A DNA stretch of 64,000 nt. Origin: Theocolax elegans. Taxonomy: Eukaryota > Arthropoda > Insecta > Hymenoptera > Cerocephalidae. A program made the position numbers and the translations under genes. The notes under the pieces were generated by a model. That model was not told the DNA's origin. It saw only the letters and a list, made by a program, of their open reading frames with translations, and did not search any database. Numbering within the stretch: the first letter of the stretch is position 1; each line of letters begins with the position of its first letter. Positions 6,301 through 64,000 of the stretch are shown here, piece after piece. The stretch lies in contig CM047427.1 of assembly GCA_026168455.1 (NCBI GenBank), positions 11,809,505-11,873,504 of the forward strand, given 5' to 3'.

Positions 6301-7928
6301 TACAAAGTAATTTGTCAAATTTAAAACGATGATAGCGATTAACATAATCTTACATATTTTTTATCGTAAAAATTACTTGATCTAGGCTCTTAAAATATTT
6401 ACGTAACGATTTATATTATTGAACGGTCAATTTACAAATAATTATTAATTGATATATATGTGATGTGTGGGATTATGTCAAATATGCAATTATATTTAAT
6501 AGCAGAAATGTAAGCAAACGATTACTGTTACAAAGCGGGGTAAAGATATATCAATAAAACTAAAAAAATGTAATGCGACAGACATATTCATTTTCTTTAA
6601 TATATTTTATAATACAAAAATAATATCAGAAATGTATCAATGCTATAATTTATATTTTACGTTACAACTCAAATTGTCAACGAATAATGAAAAGACGACT
6701 TGAAGTTAGGTCACAGTCGGTAAAGTTATCTCTGATAGTTTCGTAAAACTTAAATTTGCCGATTAATAATTTAATCAAAAATAGGAAGAATATATGATCG
6801 TTGTAAAAATTATAATTCATCTAAATTGTAAGATAATCTTTAGATGAAACAATTTAATAATATAGAATAAAATGAATAGAAAAAATTGTTTCGCATTTAC
6901 ACAAATCAAAATTTATTGCGTTTACTTAAATTTTGAATTTTTAATTGTAATATAAAAATGTACTTAAATTTTGCCAAAAAGAAGAAAGCACTGAGTTACG
7001 TGCAAACGTAAGAAATTATTCTGAAAAGTCAGAATTAATTTTTTCACAAATTACATATTAAAAGTTTCATAGAGTGAAGAGACGTAATAAATTCAACGGA
7101 ATGATTAAGAATAAACTATTTTTCTATTCTTCATGTTTTTACAAAAATCTTTATTGTAATTAAAATTAAGATTTATCATTAGCTTTCGTCATTAAATTTG
7201 CAAAAGATAATTGATCAAGAACAATGTGACATTCGATTCGTAATATCGAAATAATAAAAATAAATGCAAGTGTCAAATGTAATAATAACGTTAAATTATA
7301 AATCGGTTATTAAAAGTTCTATTTATAACTGGAGATAATATTAAGAAGCCGAGGTGAGGCGAAGAGCTCGAGGGAACTCACGAATATAGTTAATGAAAGC
7401 AGAGAGAGTCTATTAAGTATAGGAAGCAACGTCTTACCGGACTCGACCTCTATCTACTAACTAATTTATAAGGATATAGGATACTATAGGTGCATATAGA
7501 TGTCGATCTATGTATACGAAAACTCTCGATTTTCGACGCGCTTTCAAATTTTCATCCAAACTCCGATATTGGGTGTTTCTATGAAATATTGAAAAAAAAA
7601 AATCTATTAATTGTACAATACGCATAGTATACGGAATGATATGTAAATAAATTACATGTGAGTTTCTTATGATAATATAGTTAAAAGGACCCCAGAGCTG
7701 ATTTTTTCTTCTCTATTTAATGGATATATATTAAAATATTTCATGAAATTAAGTATAATTAAAGAAAAAAGGTAAAATTTAAAAAAAATAGTTAAACTGC
7801 ACTACTTTAACAAAAAATTCACAATGAAAATATAGCTGAGCATAATTAATACGAATATATTTTATCTTTGTAAAATATAAACACTCGTAAACAGACAAAA
7901 TATATAGTTCTCTTGATTAAAATTTCAG

Positions 7929-8258
7929 GGCCGGGGTCTGCGAGATTTGCGGCTCGCAGTACTGATAATCCTACGGCTGATCGTATGGGTAGGCCGAGCA
8001 GAAGTCGATGCCGAGCTTGCAAGCTCACCAGCTTCCTCCTCGAGCCTCGAACGTATGGCCATGGTGCGTCAGGTACTCAAGGAGGTACCACTCATCGACG
8101 GCCACAACGATTTACCATGGAATATACGAAACTTTGTTCACAATCAACTCGCCAAGTTTGAATTCGATAAGGATCTAAGACAGGTTAAACCTTGGAGCAA
8201 AAGCGCTTGGAGTCAAACTGACTTACCACGGCTCAAAGATGGAATGGTTGGTGGACAG
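7929..8258 (+). CDS. Dipeptidase, first visible coding exon
   Basis: An acceptor TTTCAG ends at 7928 and a donor GTGAGT starts at 8259; the exon holds 110 codons in phase 0. It encodes the hydrophobic segment ([14 protein letters not shown]), a Ser-rich linker, the zinc motif DGHNDLPW and GFVGGQ-like GMVGGQ at its end. There is no in-frame ATG before the hydrophobic segment. The first in-frame Met, in ERMAMV, would remove the signal sequence, so translation probably starts in an upstream exon. Confidence 0.92.
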
Positions 8259-11200
8259 GTGAGTCAAAAAATCTTTATTTGTATAATTCTTTAAATAAAA
8301 CAAAAAATTGAAATAGAATTTTAGTTGACATTTCTGAAGCACAGTATTTTCAGTGCATTCCAATACGGTATACACCTATTCGCGAAACTTTCTCTTTTAA
8401 TACATTTTGGAATAGAAGAAGAAAATCTTTTCGAAATTTCAATAAAAAAATCGGGAACTCCAAATAGAAACTCGAAGGAAAATATGTCTTTCTTTAAAAT
8501 TCGTTGACGTTATACAAGTAAAAAAGTATACTTATTTACTTCGTCACTAACCAACTTTTATTCCGATAACAATTTGGTGTACAAACTTTATTTATATTAA
8601 TAGTGTATACACGCATATAATCGTTTTTACAAATATTTTCTCCAAACTTACATCACAAACTTTACAATCATCTATTTATAATATACCAAATCGATCTTTT
8701 ACCATACTTTTGTGTATCTTAAAAAAAGAAAAAAGAAATCGGTTTAATATTTCGCGTATTATATCCAGAAATCGCGTTACAATTTTTCAAAATTGAACCG
8801 GAAATAATGCCATTTCAAAGTTTAAAAGCATTTTTCAAAATTAGCTTAAAGTATCACTGTTATAGTTTTTACACAATTTTCTTGAAAGTTTAACAACAGC
8901 TTCTTACGTACATTACAATACACTTTGTAACATTGCGTACGAATTTTATTTTCTCAAAAAAGTCGCGTTTCTTTGCAAAATTTTCAATAAAAAAAATAAA
9001 AATGAAAGTGAAAGTGAAAAAATTAATAAATGAAAATAAAAGTTATCACATATAATTACACAAATTAGTGTAATTCTACATTTTTTAAGAATAAATTTGT
9101 TATTTTTGGACTACAGTCCGAATGAGAAATGTTAAATTATTGATTAATTACGAAATGAAACTTTTGCAAGTTGACATAAAATGTCTTCTACTATTATAAT
9201 TGGTTGTAAAAGTTGTAATCTTCTTAAGTGCTATTGTTTGTCGAATTAAATTCTTCTGGTACATTATTAATTCTGAATAAAAGATTGTAATAACAATATT
9301 GTTAATTTACTAAAATGCCACAGTGCAATCTTCTTTAATTCTCTTATAATTAATTTCGGATAAGATATTTTTATTTAATGATTTGGTTAAATAACCTATT
9401 ATTATCCCCTTACTTATCGACCGTAAATAAAGCACATCATTAGATGTAATGTAAAAGAAGGGTTAATTAAAGCATTTTAAAGAAATTATTACATTTGATT
9501 TATCAGTCACCTACTAGTGTATGTTAAATTCAACATAAAAAATATTTTTTTTTAGAATGAAATCCTTTACTTAAATTTACTACAATTTGGCGATTTGATC
9601 TCAATCAAATTTACGAAATAATTATTTGACTTTTAAAAAGTTTAATAAAAATTTTTTATCGAAATGCTTAATTGGTATGTGTTTGAGAAATGCAGAATGT
9701 CCTCTTAAAAATCAATTAAATTTAAACACTTGAATCCGAATTCACGTACGAAATTTATTCTAAAATTTTTGGTAAAGCATTTTTGTAAAAAGTTATATTT
9801 ATTATTTATACTCTTTAACGTATTCTAATGTATTTCATTATTCTGTTAATTATTAAGAATTATTAAATTATTTTAACACCCTCTTGACAACGTTGCTGTT
9901 TAACTTCGATATTAATTTAATTGAAAGTTATTTTTTTCTATTCTATGTATCTATTTAGGTTTATTCATTTCTTACTTTTACCTCTTAAAATAGTATTATT
10001 TTTGTTAAAAATACACCAATAGATCATCAGTAATCGAGGGATAACAAATACTTATTTAAAAATATTTCACCGTCGTTTTGCAACAATTTTATGCCAATTC
10101 TTTGGTCGGTAAGGTAGAAACGTTAAAATTGGGTTAAAGATCAAAGGGAAATAAAATCTTTTGTATTAACTGAAAGCGTTAAATTATCTGAAAATAACGT
10201 ACATATACGTGCGCGTGTGTACATTGATGTGGAGTAAGAGAGTTTAAATTTTTTTCGCAATTCAATTTTAATATTTATACGCTTGCCTGCTGTCGTCCTC
10301 ACTCACCTTATAGCAATATGATTATTATACTCACCGTTTGTACGAGAGTGCAATTTCCTTTCGAAATAAAGATGCTTCACCTCCCGTGTATATAAACATA
10401 CGAATTTTTTTTCCTTCTTTGTTTTCTTCAAACTTTATAAATCTCTGATTTTTTGTGTTGAAAAACTATAATTAAAAATATATAAAAATATATTACCCTA
10501 AGATAAATAATACTTCGCCGAGTATGTGATAAAAAGTGATAAATTCTAAGAAGAAAGTATACGTATATGTATATAAGAAAAGCTTAATTTTTTTTACTGC
10601 TGGAAGCTCGAGTCACCTTAATTTTTACACCTTCTAAGCGGCAAGCTTAAAGGCATTTTATAAAGAACTAATCTTTCTCTCTTTCCCTTTACGAAACAAG
10701 CAAAAGAAAAAAAACCCTTGTGATGTGTGCATGCGTCATTTCGTTTCAAAAGGGGTTAACTAGATTTCTCGGTCAGGATGATAAAGAAAAAAAAGAAAGA
10801 AAAGTCGTTCAAACAATTTATCAGAGTTTATTGCTGTTTGAGTATATATATACTTCCTTCATTCATATATATATACACAAACACACAAACACAAAAACGT
10901 TCGTTATTTTCTTGTCTTTGTGCCAACTGGCGAATTGTAATCTGGTCTATACTGTGTAGCTCTTTGACGAAAAAAAAAATTTTTGGTGAAAAAGTTGATA
11001 AATCAATTTTTAGATTGAATTTTCTCGCTCGTAGATGGATACGAAAGTATTCCGCGTTGGCGACCAAGTTTATTGGGATGCGTATATATACGTACACATT
11101 TACATATATACGGTGTAATAAGATTCAACTGCGGGAAGTGGTTTAAATCTCTTTTTTTTTGTGTTTCGCACAAATTGCATACCTTTGTGGTCGAATTAGG

Positions 11201-32200: not shown

Positions 32201-35200
32201 AAAGAGGATTTACGCAAATTGAAATAACTCGTGCTCAAATCAGATTTTAATTACTATTCAAAAGAATTTAGATCAAGAGCTTCAATTTTGCTTAAGTGCA
32301 GCTGAAACAGTTCAAAAGTTATCTATAATTAGAAAAAATTGTTACAAATTAGCGTTAACTTTTAACCTCATATTTTTAGTGATTTTTTAAATCTATCTTT
32401 TCATAATTTTAAAATTGATCGTAACTTTCAAGCCCTTACAGATACTTGAACAAACCAAAGCTCAGATCCAAGCGCTCGATCTCAGCTTCATTAACGATTC
32501 TCAGTAATAATTATAAGTTTATTGGAATCAAAATTATTGAAATTTGTGTAAAAAGATAGAATATTTCTTTGAAATGAATCTGTTTTCCGGAGTTGACTTA
32601 TCCTAAAATAATTTTATATCTTTACACATCGCTTACCAGAAACTTTATACACACTATTCTCAGATCCAGGGGCTAATCATAAGAGTATTTTTTATAATAC
32701 GATTTAGTTCGAAAGAATGTAATTTATTATTTATTAAAAACTAATGGGAATACTGATAAATACCTGGTGGACTACGTAAATGTGAACTCATAAGTGCTCA
32801 TAAATTCTCATGGAATTCACTAATATTTCTGATGATACTGTGAGATTGCGTTTATTTAATGATCATATAGGGAATTCATTTCTCCACTATTGCATTAAAA
32901 AATGCGCAATATTTAATATTGTTAGTCGCATTAATATTTCATAAAATTACATAATAGTCGTTGATAATTCAAAGCAATCTGATTGTAATCCAAAGAAAAC
33001 CTAGTTTGTTATTTAATTTAATTACTAAAAGATTCCCAGGAATTTCGTTAAAAAAAGGAAAAGTAATGAGGTTCATTTGTTAATATCGTAGATGGGGGCC
33101 TGACAACGTTCGGTAAAGCAGTGATACGTGAGATGAACCGGCTAGGAATGTTGATCGATCTCAGCCACACTGCACGCAGGACGATGAGGGATGCCCTAAG
33201 GACGAGCAAAGCCCCCCTCATATTCTCCCACTCGTCGGCGTTCGCCATCTGCAACTCGTCGAGGAACGTGCCCGACGACATACTCAAGGAGCTGGTAAGT
33301 ACATCCTCTCAACAGACGCGATTCTCTTCTCTCTTAGTCCAGACAATTATCTTGAAAAAAAAATCCTCTGCGATTCCCTTCTCTCTTATATATATATATA
33401 TTACCAGTACGATGGCTGAATCGTGTAATGTTTCAAATTTTTTTATATAGCGTACGTTGAAAGCGATAAATTATTAAAAGGAGATACTTACGGATTGTCA
33501 ATACCCTCTACCCTGAGATAAATGTTGCATTAAAAATTATTACATTTCGTAGGGAGATAAGGATATACTTAGATTATTCCAGTTTTTTTTATTATCTTTA
33601 ATAGTAAATATTAAAATGTATTATATTTATTTTTTATGTAGCAGAATATATTTTACTATGGAACAGCGAAAATTACAATAATCCATGTACAAACTAAAGT
33701 TACTTTAAAATATAATACATTTTAAGATACCATTTTTTCAGTGCAGTAGCAATAGAGCATTTCGAGGTTATGATGAAACCGTTTTTTTGGCCATTAATTA
33801 CAGACATTTTCACCAGATTTTGGTGACATGGCCACTTTTGGTAAAAGAAACGTTTCATTAATGCATTGATTTCTGCTACGAACACAAAAATTTTACATGA
33901 ATTGGATTAGATTATTTTAATAGTCAATTGGTAACCAACGTTTCAAAAGATAATTAGACTTTGCTAAAAATTTTCAAAAAATATATTTTAAGATTTTAAA
34001 ATAATTTAATAATATTTTATTAGGTTTACGAGGACGAATCTCGACAAAAATTATGATTATATGACCATTAAAATAAATTTTCTAAAATTGACTAAATATT
34101 TTGGAACATAATATGATCAGACTGGAGTATATATAATACAATACAAAAACAATAAAATTTATTAAACTGTACTAGTAAATCTATTTGCACATTCAAATCT
34201 TTATAACAATTAAAAGAAAGCAGAATATGAAAAACATTGACTTATGAGTAACCATATAGTGATAACCATATATCACTTTCTTTAAAAATATTGAAACACA
34301 CGCATATGCATTCCAACACACTCAAACATACATATATCTATTTAATAAAATAAACGCTTATAAATACAAAAAGCGACGTTTTATAATTAATGTTAAAACC
34401 TGTAAATATATCTCGTTATCCCTTCGCAATATTATCATGAGATTATCCTTAACTTTAAACGATTCCAATGATCAATTCGATTATAAAATATAATCACAAA
34501 ATGATACATTTCCGCATGTTACAACGGTGAAATTTATAGCAAAAAAATTCTCTTGTTATATAAAAAGAAAAATGTGAAACTAACACAGGTCACTTATACA
34601 TTATTGATTATTTTATAAATAATAAGTGCACGTACGTACATATATATATATATATATATATAATGAAGATTAAAATATAAAAAAGACAATAAGATGACTA
34701 CATCGATCTACAATTTAATTCTTTTAATTACAATTATCGCATTCACATACATGTACATACACATATGTATTAATTATTTATCGTACCGTACTTTTTCAAT
34801 GTACGTTCATACAAATGTTAATTTAACATATTGACTTATTTAATTTTTCACGTCAATTCGCTACAACGTCGGGATAAAGTACAACGCACACATATAAATT
34901 AAAAATATTCTCATTTATGTATAAATAAATATATATCAACTGAATTATTGATAACGAAGAAAAATCAATATACTTATATAATGTGTGTGTATATACATAT
35001 ATATCTATATTAAACATATTGACTTTCGTTAATATACATTGTAAATTGCGCTTTCACGATTATATATATAAACATTTGCGTCTATGATTCTATATATTTA
35101 TGATATGCAACATTATTATTGAAATTATACAAATTGTAAATTAACGCAATTGTAATTTATAGATACGTATCTTAACGTTCAAATAGACAATTACATAATA

Positions 35201-55696: not shown

Positions 55697-58600
55697 TTAA
55701 TGTTTCTTTTCTTTCTTCGACTTTTTTCTACTTTTACTTCGCGAACGTTCTTTGTGCTTATGCTTTTTCTTTTCTTTCTTCGACTTTTTCTTATCCCTTG
55801 ACTTCTCAACCCAAATCTCATCCTCGACCTTTTTCGACAAACCCGAAAATATTGGCTTTTGGCTGGAAGGATCGTTCGTTTGCGGGGGCAGTTTAGGAAG
55901 TGCTGGTCCGTAAACATCGGGTGGCAAATCTTCCTCATCCGTTTGAACTTTAAAGTCTTCCTCGTCGTTCTTGGATGTATTTGGTTTTTCTTCGGTACGA
56001 TACGATTTCTCTTCGGTCGTTTCTTTAAGAGTTTCCATTTTTTCTGGCCGTTTTAACAAACTGTCGAAATCCAGTTTGGCAAAAATACCTCTAGGTGGTG
56101 ACGTGTTTCGTTGAACGTTGAGCGCGGCTGCACTTTTGCCAATAAGCGCGGCTTTTAATTTCTCGTCGTCGATCGATTTTGATTCTTCAGTTTCGGATTC
56201 GGATTCATCGCTGCTACTCAAAAATATCGATTTATAAAGATCTTTTTTCTCTTGAATATTTGTTGCTGTTGTAGGTTCTTCTGCTTCTTCTTCAAGTTCG
56301 GTTTCAATTTCTTTACTTTTGTTGCCTTCTGTACTTGTTTTGAATACTTTTTGGTAAGCTTTTTCAAATGCTTTTTCCTTTTCCGATACAACTTTTGATT
56401 CTTCAGGACTCTGCAGAGCTTCTTCTGAATCCTTTTCTACCTTTATTTTTGGTACATACGAGAAATTTGATGTAGATGGTGTTGGTTCACAGTCGTATTC
56501 TAAATTCTTTCCTTTTTCAAAATGAGCCACTTCGTTCCAAGAGAGAGAATCAAATATCGAATACTTTTTCTTTTTCTTTTGATCATCTGCAACACCAACT
56601 AAAGGTTCAGCAATATTGAATCTTACACATACCAATTTTGCTGGTTTCCATTCAACAATTGTTCTTGTGAGACAACCAAATTGTTTCATTTTTGCAGCAG
56701 CTATCAGTCTATTTTCTGTACTTAAATTTTGTAAGTCTACCCCTTTTAAATTATCCTCCTTTTTCTTTTCATTCTTTTCTGTTTCAGTTCTCGAAGAACT
56801 ATCAATCTTTTCAGATAATCTAGCTGCTTTCTCAAATTCTGCAAACTCTTGATCTCTCTCCCATTCTGTCATAGATAAAGGTTGAACAGTTGGGAACTTT
56901 AATTTTCTTTCGCTTTCCGAAAAGTTTAAAAACTGTTCGAAGCGGCGCTGTTTATCCAAATCAGAGAACGAAGGTTTTACTAATATTGTTTCTTCACTGG
57001 AAATATTTTCTTCAACTTGATTTGAAAAAGAACTTGCATCCTGTAAAGTTCCTTGAATTTTTGGATCTGTGCCAATTGTCTCACCTCTTACAAATTGCGT
57101 CGAGGATAGTTTATCTAGCCAAGACATGGCAGTTTTTTTAATCTTAGTTTGTTCTAATTTTTGTCTTTCGGCTGTTTGTTCTCGTCCATGTAGATTTAAA
57201 GTACGAGTAATCAATTGTGCAGCCACACTTGTATTTTTTTTTGCTGTTGTTGTCGAATCAATGATACTTGGTCTGTCATCATTAATAATTTTAGCTCTAC
57301 TTTCCGCATTCATTTGATGCCTAAAACAATATGCAGAATATGAATAAAATTTTCGTAAAATTTTTTAATTAACAATGGAATTTTGCACAATACATACCTC
57401 TTTGGTAAGTCATCAACTTTTTCTATCGGAGAAAATCTACTCTTCTTAACTTTATGTACAGGTTTAAAATCTTTGGGTAATGTAGGTGCTGCAAAAACTT
57501 TTTTCTGCGGAAATTTTTCCTTTGCAGATACAAAACCTTCAATTTGACCTGTATTTGGTTTCTCTTCTTTTGACCATCTGCTTTTGGATTTACGCTCTGG
57601 ACCAAGAGTAAAGTCATAACTAGACATATCCTCTCTAGCGTAGATATCATCATCTTCTGCTTCAAATGCCCCTACACCAAAAGCTTGACCTTTAATAGAC
57701 AACTTTTTATTTTTATCTTTTACACTAAAAGTAGGAGCATCAAAAAGATTAATATGTTGGCTAAGAATTGGACGACGATCCAAACCACTGTATCCAATAC
57801 CAAAATAATTATCTTTTGGATTGCATCTACAATAAATCATGTCATTATTTATTTATAATAAATATATATTGCATAATAATTAATTATAAGGTAATATAAT
57901 TTTACCTAAATGGCTCGTAGTCATCAGGCGCAAAAGTGATATTTGCATATTCATCATCAGACAAATCGGATTCACTTTCACTTTGTTTATTTTCCTGACT
58001 AGGTAAAGCACAGCCATAAATTTTAATTTTTTGATTTTGTTGTTTTTTCAGTTTTTTTTCTCGTTTTGTTAGTCTTGGTCCAACACCTTGACCTGGTTTC
58101 CATCCCATTTTCATAAGAAGTGTTACTCCAACTCTTTCTCTACATTAAATAATTTATAATACAAAATTGATTTCTAATAGTTTAATTTATTAAATATAAT
58201 TTAACTATATATATATTAAAATATTTCTTTACCTTACTGGTTTAAGAAGATCCTTTAAAACTGGAACTCCAGGGATTGGTCCAGTACTGTCATTTTTACT
58301 GCGTTCTCGTTTTGTACCTTTATTAGATGCATTAGTATATCCCTGAGTAGCACGAATTCCAGTTGGTGCAAAACCAAATTCTCCAGTATCCTCTTCGTCC
58401 ATAAAATCTTCTGGACATTGTGCGACATTACTGGCTTTATTACTCCTGGTAGATTTGAATTGTTGAGGTCTCCAACCATCTCTAGTACCAACTGTATTAA
58501 AATATCCAGCTGAAAATCCACCTGTAAAAGCTCCATGAAATCTACGTCTACCTTGAGCATCGTACGCAAATTGTTCTTCAATAGTTGCAGGTTTCTTTCT

Positions 58601-59232
58601 AGGGAGATTGTCTGTAAAATAATATATAATACTATTTATTATTGCTTAATTATTTCTTTATTGTATTTTCTAATCTAATAACATCAATTAATATTTAATA
58701 ATGAAGTCACATACTCCAACAATGATTATATTTGATCCTAATATTCACAGTTTATAAAATTTATTTTTTAAAATGAAATAATGAAATAAATAAAGGCTAT
58801 AAAGACAATTTTTAATTATGGATAATAAAGAGAAGCACATCAGTTTTACAATAGATAATTTTTTATAGTCTGAAAAGAATAGAGGAATTTCATTAAATCA
58901 TTGCCAAATAAGCAAAGACTCTGGTTTTATTTATCCTTATTAAAAAAATAGTCTCAATGTGAACAATGAAAAATTTGTCTCACAACACCAAAATACTGTA
59001 ATGGCAAATTAAAATATATATAAAAAATGTAACCAAAAATGTGATAGACGTAATAATTAACACTTTTTATTATTTACAAGACTGTAGGTATGTCTATATT
59101 ATCAAAAGCACAATCCATGAAAATTAAAGCCTTGGAATAAAATAAAAATATTTTTGTTTATATAAACAAACCTTCGTCCAAGGGTTCAAGTGCATTGCCA
59201 TAAGTAACAAAATCATCTTCGCTATCGCTCAT
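55697..59232 (-). CDS. GPATCH1, G-patch domain spliceosomal protein
   Basis: Five exons: 59172-59232, 58233-58611, 57906-58139, 57398-57826 and 55697-57320, with consistent phases; 908 aa against 931 in human. The N-terminus MSDSEDDFVTYGNALEPLDE and RRRFHGAFTGGFSAGYFNTV is diagnostic. The G-patch (about residues 150-190) has LLMKMGWKPGQGVGPR, followed by KIYGCALP. Further conserved blocks are GQAFGVGAFEAEDDDIYA, SMTEWERD (~517) and FGCLTRTIVEWKPAKL (~580). The acidic, Ser-rich middle and a Lys/Arg/Ser tail are likely disordered. In other species GPATCH1 activates the helicase DHX35 in late spliceosomes; its nuclear role here is inferred from orthology. Shares a promoter with Orc1. Confidence 0.96.
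58612..59171 (-). other. GPATCH1 intron 1
   Basis: A 560-nt AT-rich intron. I looked for C/D and H/ACA snoRNA signatures on the minus strand and saw none convincing. Confidence 0.6.
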
Positions 59233-59524: not shown

Positions 59525-59890
59525 ATGATCCATCTGCAAATAAGAGACGGCGAGTGGTCGGTGAGTTAATTCATTAATTGTATGGATAAAAAATATCGTT
59601 AGATTCGCTTAAATATTAAATTTAATATACAGATATTATAAAAATATTAATCTGCTATCGTTAAGTTTTTTATTTTTCTCTCTTATTATCTTGTTCGTTC
59701 AGATGCGCTTACGTTTACTAACCACGTGGCCGCCTAACGTTTTGTACACATTTTTCGTTTAGAAATAACATTCTTTTTTTTTAAATGACAATATTTATAA
59801 AAATCGTTAAAAAATATATAAATTCATTACTCTAATATATTTCAGCTAGATCAAAATGTCTATGGACAGGAAATTAAGGACAAGGGATAA
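59525..59890 (+). promoter_or_regulatory. Upstream ORF overlapping the Orc1 start
   Basis: A 5' UTR exon ends at 59560 (donor GTGAGT) and joins 59846 (acceptor TTTCAG). An ATG at 59525 opens a 26-codon frame. It crosses the splice junction, overlaps the Orc1 ATG in another frame and stops at 59888-59890. If the 5' UTR starts upstream of 59525, this uORF would reduce Orc1 translation. The intron also contains CACGTG at 59723-59728. Confidence 0.45.
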
Positions 59891-62399
59891 TAAAGAACAT
59901 GAAGATAAGACTGGTAAATTAATTAATTATTTGTTTAAATTGTTTTTATTTTTGTGCACATGTATATATTCATTTAAATATGATTTTGTAGAATTTAATT
60001 CGTTAAGAACAAGACGAAATTCGAAACATGTAGATTTATATGGCACACCTACAAGTAAATTTGTAAGTAAAAGGAATTTAAATCCGCAAGATATATCTGC
60101 AGCAATTAATTCTTCCGAGGATGAATTTGAAATTCCAAAAGGTGAGTTACAGAAACAATGATCAAAATTTAAGGAAAAACATAAATGCAATATCTATTTT
60201 ATTGTTTGCAAATAAAAATTGATTATTATATTATAGCTAAAATTACGACTAGAAAATCAAATGCTTATACACCAAGTAAAAGCGGAAGAGTAAAAAGGAA
60301 TGTTTCTATTAAATCTCTCAATGAAGATGATTTGTTTAAAGAACAGGAGGAAGCAGCAAAAGCAGCATGTTCTACACCTAAGAAACTTAAGAATCATATT
60401 TATGAACACCAATCACTTTCTACATATATATATAATACACCTAAGCAACAAAAGATAACAAATACACCAAAGAAGAGCTTGAAGTCAGTTTCTAGTACAC
60501 CAAATCATGTAAGAACTTTACATATAGAAGATTCACCTGCTACTGCCATATCAAAATTACGAATCAATGGTACACCTGCACGCAGATCGATTCTTAGAAA
60601 TCATCCAATATCAAAAGAGAATGACTCTGCAATTGGAAATACACCTAGAAGTACTCGTCGTTTGACTTTAAATATTAAAGATGAAAAAGTACGTAAAAGT
60701 CCGAGAAAACGACCTGCTACACCCGAAGATATAAAAGATGCTGATTATGTTATGGATCAAGATCAGGAAAGTGATGATTCATATGAAAGCGAAAACACTG
60801 AAGAAGACAGCGAGTCTGAATTTGTAAGTACTGATGAAGATAATGATGATATAATAAAAAAAAAGTTGAAAACTCCAAGAAAATCTTTAAAGAGTAGCTT
60901 AAAGACTCCATCAAAAAAATTACTAACTCCAAAAGTTCATGAAAGAATTGCAAGCATTGCAAAACCGTCTACACCATTACAGGAAGCACGTTTGAAGCTT
61001 CATGTAAGTGTACTTCCAAAGTCATTGCCATGCAGAGAAGAACAATTTAACGATATATATACTTTCTTACATGCAAGATTATCCGATTGTAGTGGAGGGT
61101 ACATATTCATTTCATTGAATAATTTTATCTTGTTCAATTTTAAGACAAATATTTATGCATTTTATTTTTGTTTAGTTGCATCTATGTAAGTGGAGTACCT
61201 GGAACAGGCAAAACTGCTACAGTTAATGAAGTAATACGTTGTTTAAAGAAGTCAATGAATGCAGGAAAGCTTAATGCATTCGAATTTGTAGATATTAATG
61301 GAATGAAATTGTCTGAACCTAGACAAGCTTATGTGCAAATTTGGAAACAGTTAACAGGAAATACTGTTTCTTGGGAACAAGCTCAAAAGTCACTTCTCGA
61401 TAGATTTACTAAAAATAAATACAAAAAGGGTATGACACTATTACTTGTAGATGAGGTAATTATTTATCATCTATTAGGTACTTCAAAATCTTGTTTCATC
61501 TAAATAAATAAAATAATCCATTTTTCTTTTTACAGTTGGATCTTTTATGCACAAAACGACAAGATGTTGTGTATAATCTGTTAGATTGGCCAAGTAAAGC
61601 TGGAGCAAAGTTAGTTGTAATTACAATAGCAAATACAATGGATCTTCCTGAACGAATTTTGATGGGTAAAGTCACGTCGCGTTTGGGTTTGACTAGATTA
61701 ACATTTCCACCTTATAATTATAAACAACTGGAAGAAATTGTGGTATCTAGATTGAAAGGCTATAATGCTTTTAGTGGTGAAACAGTACAGCTTATAGCTA
61801 GGTATTGCAAATTTATTTATTATTGCAAACAAAATATAAGAAAAAGTTTTTGCAATGACGAATTATTTTCCAGAAAAGTTGCAGCTGTTTCTGGCGATGC
61901 TAGACGAGCTCTGGATATATGTAGAAGAGCAACTGAAGTGGCAGAAACAAATAATCGTGAAATTGTTACAATGACTGATGTGCAACAAGCATTAAATGAA
62001 ATGATTGCCAGCCCTAAAATTCAAGCAATCAAACATTGTTCAGACATGGAAAAACTGTTTCTTCAAGCTGTTTGCGCAGAAGTCACTCGTACTGGAGTAG
62101 AAGAAGTAGTTTTTAAAAATGTTTATTTTGAATTCGAATCGCTTTGTACATTTGAAAGTTAGTGATTTTAACTTTATAGTTTTGTGTTTATAAAGTTATA
62201 TAAATGTAGATTTATTAAAAATTGTTTCTTATTTTTAGGAGAACCAAAACCTAATATTACTATGGCACTTGGTATATGCGCCAGGCTTGGTTCTTGGAGG
62301 TTACTTTTATGTGAACATTCAAGATTGGATATTCATCAGAGATTATTGTTGAATGTTTCAGCAGATGATGTTCATTATGCTACACAAATTAAAATCTAA
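59856..62399 (+). CDS. Orc1, origin recognition complex subunit 1
   Basis: AAA+ ATPase that binds origins within ORC and loads MCM with Cdc6. Exons 59856-59913, 59992-60141, 60237-61098, 61176-61455, 61536-61801, 61874-62157 and 62239-62399 give 686 aa. Residues 1-320 are basic, disordered and full of TP sites (STPKK, NTPKK, GTPARRS, KTPSKK), likely CDK targets. Walker A is GVPGTGKT (~363-370), Walker B LLLVDELD (~445-452), sensor 1 ITIANTMDLPER (~479-490), sensor 2 SGDARRALDICRRA (~545-558). The end, LGSWRLLLCEHSRLDIHQRL, is the winged helix. Two introns are in frame and can be mistaken for coding. No BAH domain is encoded in these exons. The start was chosen as the first ATG after the spliced 5' UTR. 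Confidence 0.96.
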
Positions 62400-62491
62400 T
62401 TTGTCTTTTATTTCATTGATCATATTAATTAGATTTTTAATGTAAGTACTTGGTATTTTAAATTTTAAATACAATATAAATTTCTTTTTCA

Positions 62492-62561
62492 ATGATGAAC
62501 ACTGCATACCACCTAAATCAAATGAGTGCTATGATTAACACTGTAGTATTTGCTAATCTGA
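62492..62561 (+). ncRNA. U24-like box C/D snoRNA copy 1 (diverged)
   Basis: Box C ATGATGA at 62492-62498 and box D CTGA at 62558-62561. The D guide GTATTTGCTAAT has an extra A compared with the other copies. The other guide is degraded to ATACCACCTAAATC and ends at ATGA. C'-like ATGATTA is kept. The D box lies 76 nt before the acceptor at 62637. It may be a pseudogene or a retargeted guide. Confidence 0.75.
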
Positions 62562-62579
62562 TGATTCTTAATAATATTA

Positions 62580-62585
62580 AATAAA
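62580..62585 (+). terminator. Possible Orc1 poly(A) signal inside the first 3' intron
   Basis: AATAAA lies ~180 nt after the Orc1 stop, inside the first snoRNA-bearing intron. Use of this site would give a short Orc1 mRNA; splicing would give the long transcript. Confidence 0.4.
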
Positions 62586-62894
62586 TGAAATTATTAAACA
62601 TAAAAATTGAAATTTAACCATACTGTACCATTTTCAGGATGCCTGTGATTGTATAAAAGTACTGTATTTGACAAGTTATAATAGTATTGAATTAGTAATT
62701 AAAAAATATTTATTTTATCAAGATCGTTAATCAAAGGTGATAATTCAAGTGCATGTTTGTTTGCTCACAATGGATCTAATATGAAATAAATTTGTAAAAA
62801 GTAAATTGTCACTTTCCTGAATCACATACTTTCTGGTAAGATATAATTTTTTTTAAATTGCATAAAAAAATATCTTTTTATATCTTTAATATCT

Positions 62895-62960
62895 ATGATG
62901 ACATATGCAACCACCAAGATCTATGAATGCCATGATTTTAAATTTGTATTTGCTATCTGA
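62895..62960 (+). ncRNA. U24-type box C/D snoRNA copy 2
   Basis: Box C ATGATGA (62895-62901), guide CAACCACCAAGATCT before the D'-like ATGA, C'-like CATGATT, guide TGTATTTGCTAT, box D CTGA (62957-62960). The guides are complementary to 28S rRNA AGATCTTGGTGG and TAGCAAATA. The fifth base from each D box would pair with the two cytosines targeted by human U24 (C2338 and C2352), which are 14 nt apart in the rRNA. The D box is 73 nt before the 3' splice site. Confidence 0.92.
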
Positions 62961-63187
62961 ATAATTACGAAACTAAATTTTATATCCATACAAGTCATAA
63001 AATGATATTACATAAAATATTTTTCTTTTGCAGGTTTTTATAATCTAAAAATCTGGTGATTAACTTATTTAAAAACAGGAAAGGAAAATTCATAGTACAG
63101 TAATTTAAATAATTTTGGCAGCAATTTGTAATCAATGTGAGTTTTATAAAATTTATTCCAATAAATTAATATTTTTCTATTTTAAAT

Positions 63188-63254
63188 ATGATGACATATA
63201 ACAGCCACCAAGATCTATGAGTGCTATGATTAAGAATCTGTATTTGCTATCTGA
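63188..63254 (+). ncRNA. U24-type box C/D snoRNA copy 3
   Basis: Box C at 63188-63194, D at 63251-63254. Guides CAGCCACCAAGATCT (one A-to-G change that still allows a G-U pair) and TGTATTTGCTAT. Located 73 nt before the acceptor at 63327. Short AAAT/ATTT terminal pairing flanks the boxes. Confidence 0.92.
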
Positions 63255-63445
63255 AAATTTCTATAAAAACACTTTAAATTTAGTTTCCTAATAAATGCAA
63301 GTATTAATATAAATTTTGAATTTTCAGTATTTGAAAGTTCACTGAAGTTTCCGATATACAAGGACCTGTATTGATGAATATCAATCTTCTTTAGATATAA
63401 TGGTAAATTATGTTTAACTATTATAATATTAATTATATTTGAAAC

Positions 63446-63511
63446 ATGATGACATAAGCAACCACCAAGATCTATGAATGCCATGATTTTATATTTGTAT
63501 TTGCTATCTGA
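63446..63511 (+). ncRNA. U24-type box C/D snoRNA copy 4
   Basis: Box C at 63446-63452, D at 63508-63511. Guides CAACCACCAAGATCT and TGTATTTGCTAT identical to copy 2; D' is ATGA. Located 82 nt before the acceptor at 63593. Flanking TAATTATA and TAATTA can pair. Confidence 0.92.
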
Positions 63512-63718
63512 TAATTATTTTAGTACTAAACAATTTGGTTACCATTTTTTTTACAAAGGTACATAAATTGATATTGTTTTTATCTTCTTTTAGACATTTC
63601 CCTAGTAAAAAAATTTCTTCTCAAATACAAGATTAATGGATTTTGAACCGTTCCTCAAAAACAAACTCTAAGGTGCGTAAATTTATATTATTATTTACTT
63701 TTTAAGAATTTTAATCAA

Positions 63719-63784
63719 ATGATGAAATTCGCAACCACCAAGATCTCTGAGTGCCGTGATTATTATTTTGTATTTGCTATCTGA
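63719..63784 (+). ncRNA. U24-type box C/D snoRNA copy 5
   Basis: Box C at 63719-63725, D at 63781-63784. This copy has a canonical D' CTGA after CAACCACCAAGATCT, and a better C' (GTGATTA). It looks the most complete. Located 78 nt before the acceptor at 63862. Confidence 0.93.
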
Positions 63785-63975
63785 AATTGTTTTTTTTAAT
63801 ATTAAAGTATAAATATGTAATACTTGTATGTCGTACTCAATAGATTTTATTTTGTTTTTCAGAATGCTCTTGCTATCCCATCGTTCAATCTATGTATTCT
63901 CATAAGAAGATTAATAAAACGTAAGTATATCAGTACAATACATTGTAAAACTGTTTTAATATTCTACAAAATTAC

Positions 63976-64000
63976 ATGATGATACATACAACCACCAAGA
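63976..64000 (+). ncRNA. U24-type box C/D snoRNA copy 6 (cut by window end)
   Basis: Box C ATGATGA at 63976-63982 followed by ACATACAACCACCAAGA, where the window ends. It sits 55 nt after a GTAAGT donor at 63921, as in the other introns. Confidence 0.88.

Follow-up and report, generated by a model that had tools for sequence, protein, structure and literature searches.

Among described small nucleolar RNAs, the closest to those analysed here belong to the box C/D family U24 (SNORD24; Rfam RF00069), which has been traced to the last eukaryotic common ancestor and whose rRNA target sites are conserved across yeast, plants and animals (PMC3511168). U24 is intronic and carries guides for 28S C2338 and C2352 (PMC3412847). 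Its host gene is RPL7A in human and chicken (PMC2653536) or RPL5 in sponges, in which one guide is not conserved in three of four species (PMC3412847). In chicken U24, C-2126 is guided from the 5′ position, at box D′, and C-2112 from the 3′ position, at box D, and the two sites lie 14 nt apart (PMC2653536). We equate C-2112 and C-2126 with human C2338 and C2352 because the spacing is the same 14 nt; the Rfam SNORD24 consensus has the same guide order as chicken U24.

Three further systems bear on the comparison. In Neurospora, CD50, listed as U24, guides 26S-Cm1418—a U24 site of the C2338 kind—from D′, and CD51, listed as U24b, guides Am1430 from D′ as well (PMC2780460). The Drosophila Uhg genes have up to 16 introns, all but two of which each encode a single snoRNA (PMC4430873); Uhg1 hosts 16 snoRNAs and Uhg4 seven (PMC4430873, PMC9710044), and vertebrate gas5 likewise carries its snoRNAs singly in the successive introns of a non-coding host (PMC2653536). 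Finally, the near-identical Drosophila isoforms CD5a-c, which are another snoRNA with another target (18S A28), need not share a site (PMC13228274).

The locus described here lies at the right-hand end of a 64-kb stretch of wasp DNA (hereafter the window), immediately downstream of Orc1. Its predicted RNAs resemble U24 in being intronic box C/D RNAs with guides for 28S C2338 and C2352, and differ from it in that the guide order is reversed, several copies are present, the Rfam score is below threshold and the host is neither RPL7A nor RPL5. The one-per-intron arrangement recalls Uhg genes and gas5; unlike in these, all six introns within the window carry one family and the host is perhaps the 3′ UTR of Orc1. 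An initial annotation of this DNA had regarded the form of the array as undescribed, which was overstated, since non-coding hosts whose introns carry snoRNAs singly are well known from Drosophila (PMC4430873). It had also taken the units for plain U24, which is not borne out because the two guides are in reverse order. We consider this swapped dual-guide order to be the unusual part of the array. In the literature covered, the main Drosophila catalogues apart, we found no one-family array, no Orc1-linked host and no dual-guide U24 with exchanged guides.

Results

Six box C/D units, five complete and one truncated by the window end, occupy positions 62492-64000 of the + strand, each in a predicted intron of its own (Table 1). 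With splice sites predicted from GT-AG rules and by-eye consensus only, five introns are closed and one is open at the edge. Box D lies 76, 73, 73, 82 and 78 nt from the 3′ splice site in units 1-5, and box C lies 50, 59, 51, 43, 46 and 55 nt from the 5′ splice site in units 1-6. This confirms the earlier reading of box C/D units in successive introns of 190-198 nt, and the distance of 73-82 nt to the 3′ splice site, which had been called constant, holds as near-constant across the five complete units. The description of all six as U24 guide units is sound for units 2-5, and does not strictly apply to unit 1, in which both guides have diverged.

Table 1. Coordinates of Orc1, the box C/D units and the predicted introns and exons of their host
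Feature	Position in window	Strand	Description
Orc1 coding region	59856..62399	+	7 exons, spliced ORF of 686 aa; upstream neighbour, possible host
Predicted intron 1	62442..62637	+	196 nt, GTAAGT...CAG; donor 42 nt past Orc1 stop codon
Unit 1	62492..62561	+	diverged box C/D unit; D guide moved 1 nt to G2351, C2338 guide mismatched
ATTAAA	starts 62576	+	inside intron 1, beyond unit 1
First AATAAA past Orc1 stop	62580..62585	+	inside intron 1, 18 nt beyond box D of unit 1
Predicted host exons 2-6	62638-62835, 63034-63136, 63328-63402, 63594-63672, 63863-63920	+	span 62638..63920
Predicted intron 2	62836..63033	+	198 nt
Unit 2	62895..62960	+	box C, C2338 guide, D′, C′, C2352 guide, box D
Predicted intron 3	63137..63327	+	191 nt
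Unit 3	63188..63254	+	anatomy as unit 2
Predicted intron 4	63403..63593	+	191 nt
Unit 4	63446..63511	+	anatomy as unit 2; 97% identity with unit 2
Predicted intron 5	63673..63862	+	190 nt
Unit 5	63719..63784	+	anatomy as unit 2; CTGA at D′ too
Predicted intron 6	63921..64000	+	open at window end; contains truncated unit 6
Unit 6 (truncated)	from 63976	+	box C and start of C2338 guide

All five complete units have the same anatomy: ATGATGA, a C2338-type guide, ATGA or CTGA, a 5-nt spacer, RTGATT, a C2352-type guide and CTGA. Written by guide sequence, the scheme is box C, CCACCAAGATC, D′, C′, TTTGCTAT, CTGA. Box C is ATGATGA in all six units and box D is CTGA in the five complete ones, as in the box C/D consensus (RUGAUGA, CUGA); these outer boxes are consensus-like, and degeneracy is seen mostly in the inner boxes. 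The box-and-guide pattern, which was drawn up after the units had been seen, has five matches on the + strand of the window, all in the array, none on the − strand and none in 500 dinucleotide shuffles of the last 4 kb. Single guide elements are less decisive than this full pattern. With at most one mismatch, the C2352 element TTTGCTATCTGA occurs four times in the window against 0.31 expected, a count reached by none of 100 shuffles. The C2338 element CCACCAAGATCT is a weaker control, occurring six times with at most two mismatches against 1.85 expected (2 of 100 shuffles reach six); its four exact copies are all inside the array. A search for both guides gave seven matches in prokaryotic contigs and 0, 0 and 5 in three scans of viral contigs, which we take as chance because none of the 12 has a box C within 30 nt upstream.

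The folding of the units is less distinctive. Some intronic box C/D snoRNAs lack a terminal stem. Here, the flanks that would join the unit ends pair no better than shuffles: over 5 + 15 tests, the shuffle fraction was lowest for unit 1, at 0.08. Instability of the terminal stem has been described as characteristic of snoRNA pseudogenes (PMC12309372). Folded together, the five complete units give a weak consensus structure (−2.8 kcal/mol, one of 19 pairs compensatory), as expected for guides, which stay open. We dropped the idea of two single-guide half snoRNAs per unit; the 5-nt D′-C′ spacer fits one dual-guide RNA. A tRNA scan found none.

In all five complete units, the C2338-type guide, at D′, precedes the C2352-type guide, at D, which is the reverse of U24. 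Rfam reflects this. At the gathering threshold, it gives no match in the 64-kb window; at a relaxed threshold, SNORD24 matches units 4, 2, 5 and 3 with 33.2, 31.8, 30.8 and 22.8 bits, respectively (gathering threshold 41; E-values 0.0065, 0.013, 0.024 and 1.9), and unit 1 is not matched even then. In the four matched units, the 3′ half of the model lies on the 5′ half of the unit, and the 5′ half of the model aligns poorly to the AT-rich upstream intron. Rotating the consensus changes the picture: with single-base shuffles as the background and the consensus in place of natural U24 sequences, the rotated consensus reaches z-scores of 5.4, 8.6, 7.2, 7.2 and 7.7 in units 1-5 versus 1.6, 1.3, 1.8, 0.9 and 1.2 when unrotated. 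Among 67 rotations, the best one for units 2-5 has offset 36, with the break directly in front of box C′; for unit 1 the break falls 7 nt earlier. The D′-C′ spacer is RTGCY in all five complete units, and TGCA, the U24 terminal stem in the consensus, ranks 13th of 256 as a 4-nt insert, ties included, which is only suggestive of a spacer that might keep a trace of that stem. Rfam also placed the Dictyostelium family DdR16 on units 3 and 5 (22.1 and 20.2 bits, threshold 70; E-values 2.5 and 6.2), which we take to reflect box similarity only.

Precedent for the swapped order is partial. CD50 of Neurospora guides the C2338-kind site from D′, as the wasp units would; unlike them, with their second guide at D for C2352, it is listed with the Cm1418 guide alone. 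The literature covered, the main Drosophila snoRNA tables apart, yielded neither a swapped U24 nor a U24 array in insects; PMC13228274, on Drosophila, contains no mention of U24 by name. An insect-wide guide swap may nevertheless have been published or deposited in databases before.

The predicted rRNA targets were assigned on the LSU rRNA stretch of a contig from the viral collection (L013), which matches Rfam eukaryotic LSU rRNA with 324.6 bits and was used in place of wasp 28S. There, the D′ guides of units 2-5 form 12 or 13 contiguous Watson-Crick pairs with the 28S C2338 region (human numbers), and their D guides form 9 Watson-Crick and 2 G-U pairs with the C2352 region. The base to be methylated is opposite the fifth nucleotide ahead of each D box: for D′ this is the C of ATCTTGG, and for D it is the C of TAGCAAATA, 14 nt on. 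The bases of this stretch at +0, +12, +13 and +14 (C, A, G and C) fit the known human sites Cm2338, Am2350 and Gm2351 (PMC8817022) and the human C2352 site (PMC3412847). Each D box of unit 1 is preceded by one additional nucleotide: the D guide of this unit is directed to G2351, with a single mismatch at the second position counted from the box, and the D′ guide, mismatched at C2338, points to U2337. In yeast U24, a 1-nt deletion in the antisense element is reported to move methylation from C1436 to U1437 (PMC8307265), and it is this analogy that makes a target shift of unit 1 to the neighbouring site credible. The relation of unit 1 to units 2-5 would thereby resemble that among the CD5a-c isoforms.

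Conservation in the array is confined to the RNA elements, as the initial annotation had it. The cores of units 2-5 are 82-97% identical to one another, and that of unit 1 is 75-77% identical to them. With classes assigned by hand on unit 2, any two units share 39-44 of the 44 box and guide positions and 9-15 of the 22 spacer positions (20 of 22 for units 2 versus 4). In contrast to the boxes and guides, flanks and exons are near the shuffled level: of 20 intron-flank and 10 exon comparisons, 29 deviate from shuffled sequence by no more than 1.5 sd, and only exon 3 versus exon 4 exceeds this (z 2.4). Such a pattern is what selection on guide RNAs would leave. Units 2 (62895-62960) and 4 (63446-63511) are 97% alike, spacers included, and their flanks are unrelated; gene conversion that affected only the RNA portion may have made these two units alike.

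Upstream of the array, the Orc1 protein has wasp Orc1 as its best matches, headed by that of Nasonia (71% identity, 68% of the query covered). Among the best 120 of 1961 matches, the top six are from Nasonia, Trichomalopsis, Ceratosolen, Trichogramma, Phymastichus and Eretmocerus, which we take to be chalcidoid genera; judged by this similarity, the DNA comes from a chalcidoid-like wasp. The Orc1 3′ UTR may be the host of the array because the first predicted donor follows the Orc1 stop by only 42 nt, with neither AATAAA nor ATTAAA between them. The predicted junctions would then fall 42, 240, 343, 418 and 497 nt past that stop, and Orc1 transcripts that run through the array would possibly be substrates for decay. 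In spliced exons 2-6, ATG-to-stop ORFs reach 13 aa at most; the host continues beyond the window, where its 3′ end lies. Either the Orc1 3′ UTR continues in this way or Orc1 ends in intron 1 and the array has a separate transcription start. If the AATAAA at 62580-62585 were used, the Orc1 mRNA would terminate there and all units after the first would be lost from it, so that this signal is a possible switch between Orc1 and snoRNA output.

Two other genes were noted in the window. An exon with a DUF1604 domain (PF07713), at 58232-58645 on the − strand, belongs to a gene on the strand opposite Orc1 whose start was placed by eye near 59.2 kb; DUF1604 is presumably the N-terminal part of GPATCH1, and this gene and Orc1 may share a promoter region. 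A membrane dipeptidase exon (Peptidase_M19) lies at 33070-33447 (+), and a match below the cut-off at 7917-8291 (21.1 bits, cut-off 26) is perhaps of the same family.

Discussion

The explanation that we regard as very probable is that these introns encode a tandemly repeated family of U24/SNORD24-related box C/D snoRNAs, and that their host transcript either runs on from the last part of Orc1 or has its start there. The boxes, the guides and their order, the complementarity to the targets, the splice-site consensus and the pattern of conservation are seen in the sequence; that the array is transcribed, spliced, processed and active in methylation, and what its host is, are inferred. Each intron would be spliced out, a snoRNP would assemble on the C/D motif at its near-constant distance from the 3′ splice site, and exonucleases would trim the debranched intron. 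Units 2-5 would guide 2′-O-methylation of 28S rRNA at C2338 from D′ and at C2352 from D, and unit 1 would probably guide that of G2351. The guide order is reversed relative to U24, as if the RNA had been circularly permuted. Weighing against this explanation are terminal stems no stronger than those of shuffled sequence, unstable stems being typical of snoRNA pseudogenes (PMC12309372), the damage to one guide of unit 1 and Rfam scores under the gathering threshold.

Other readings were weighed. That these are ordinary U24 RNAs in the normal guide order, the swap being a parsing mistake, would account for the presence of both U24 guides and for SNORD24 being the best Rfam score in the region, even if under threshold. 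It is hard to square with a C2338-type guide ahead of a C2352-type guide in every complete unit, where the next downstream C2338-type guide sits beyond an exon, in the next intron; the unrotated consensus reaches z-scores of only 0.9-1.8 and the consensus-like boxes are outer, the degenerate ones mostly inner. We therefore consider a parsing mistake extremely improbable. A decaying pseudogene array, produced by a burst of intronic copies that are now mostly silent and alike through recent duplication or conversion, fits the divergence of unit 1, the stems no better than shuffled and the 97% likeness of units 2 and 4. Against such decay, identity is concentrated in boxes and guides and is lower in spacers, flanks and exons, and boxes C and D are intact in all six and all five units, respectively, which makes it improbable, if less so than a parsing mistake.

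The remaining alternative concerns the host only, and is compatible with our preferred explanation for the RNAs. The array could belong to a separate non-coding host gene of the Uhg type with its own promoter in the last part of Orc1. The initial annotation had proposed a UHG-like host, and its non-coding exons with one snoRNA per intron stand, as in Drosophila Uhg genes (PMC4430873); Orc1 could also end at the AATAAA at 62580, within intron 1. Less secure is the separateness, because the first donor falls within the Orc1 3′ UTR, 42 nt from its beginning, and this short interval after the Orc1 stop, free of AATAAA and ATTAAA, also argues against a gene of its own. A separate host is a serious possibility, to which we give somewhat less than even weight.

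Taking order, copies and host together, one may picture that the halves of U24 were exchanged in this insect lineage, giving a circularly permuted dual-guide snoRNA that multiplied in the introns of a transcript continuing from Orc1, one copy drifting to G2351. We put this combined history forward tentatively, as possible and on balance doubtful. The permutation could have come about when two tandem copies fused and their outer halves were lost, or it could have passed through a circular RNA; the present D′-C′ spacer would perhaps preserve a remnant of the former terminal stem (TGC). With the order swapped, the guides cannot pair with the adjacent rRNA targets as one collinear antiparallel stretch, so that the two methylations may need separate RNPs.

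A natural U24 with its guides exchanged would test whether guide order matters, for example, whether one snoRNP must hold both neighbouring rRNA sites simultaneously. How new guides originate would be illustrated by an array in which a single copy has moved its target by 1 nt, onto the adjacent methylation site. And if the host is the Orc1 3′ UTR, the supply of ribosome-modifying RNAs would be coupled to a replication gene.
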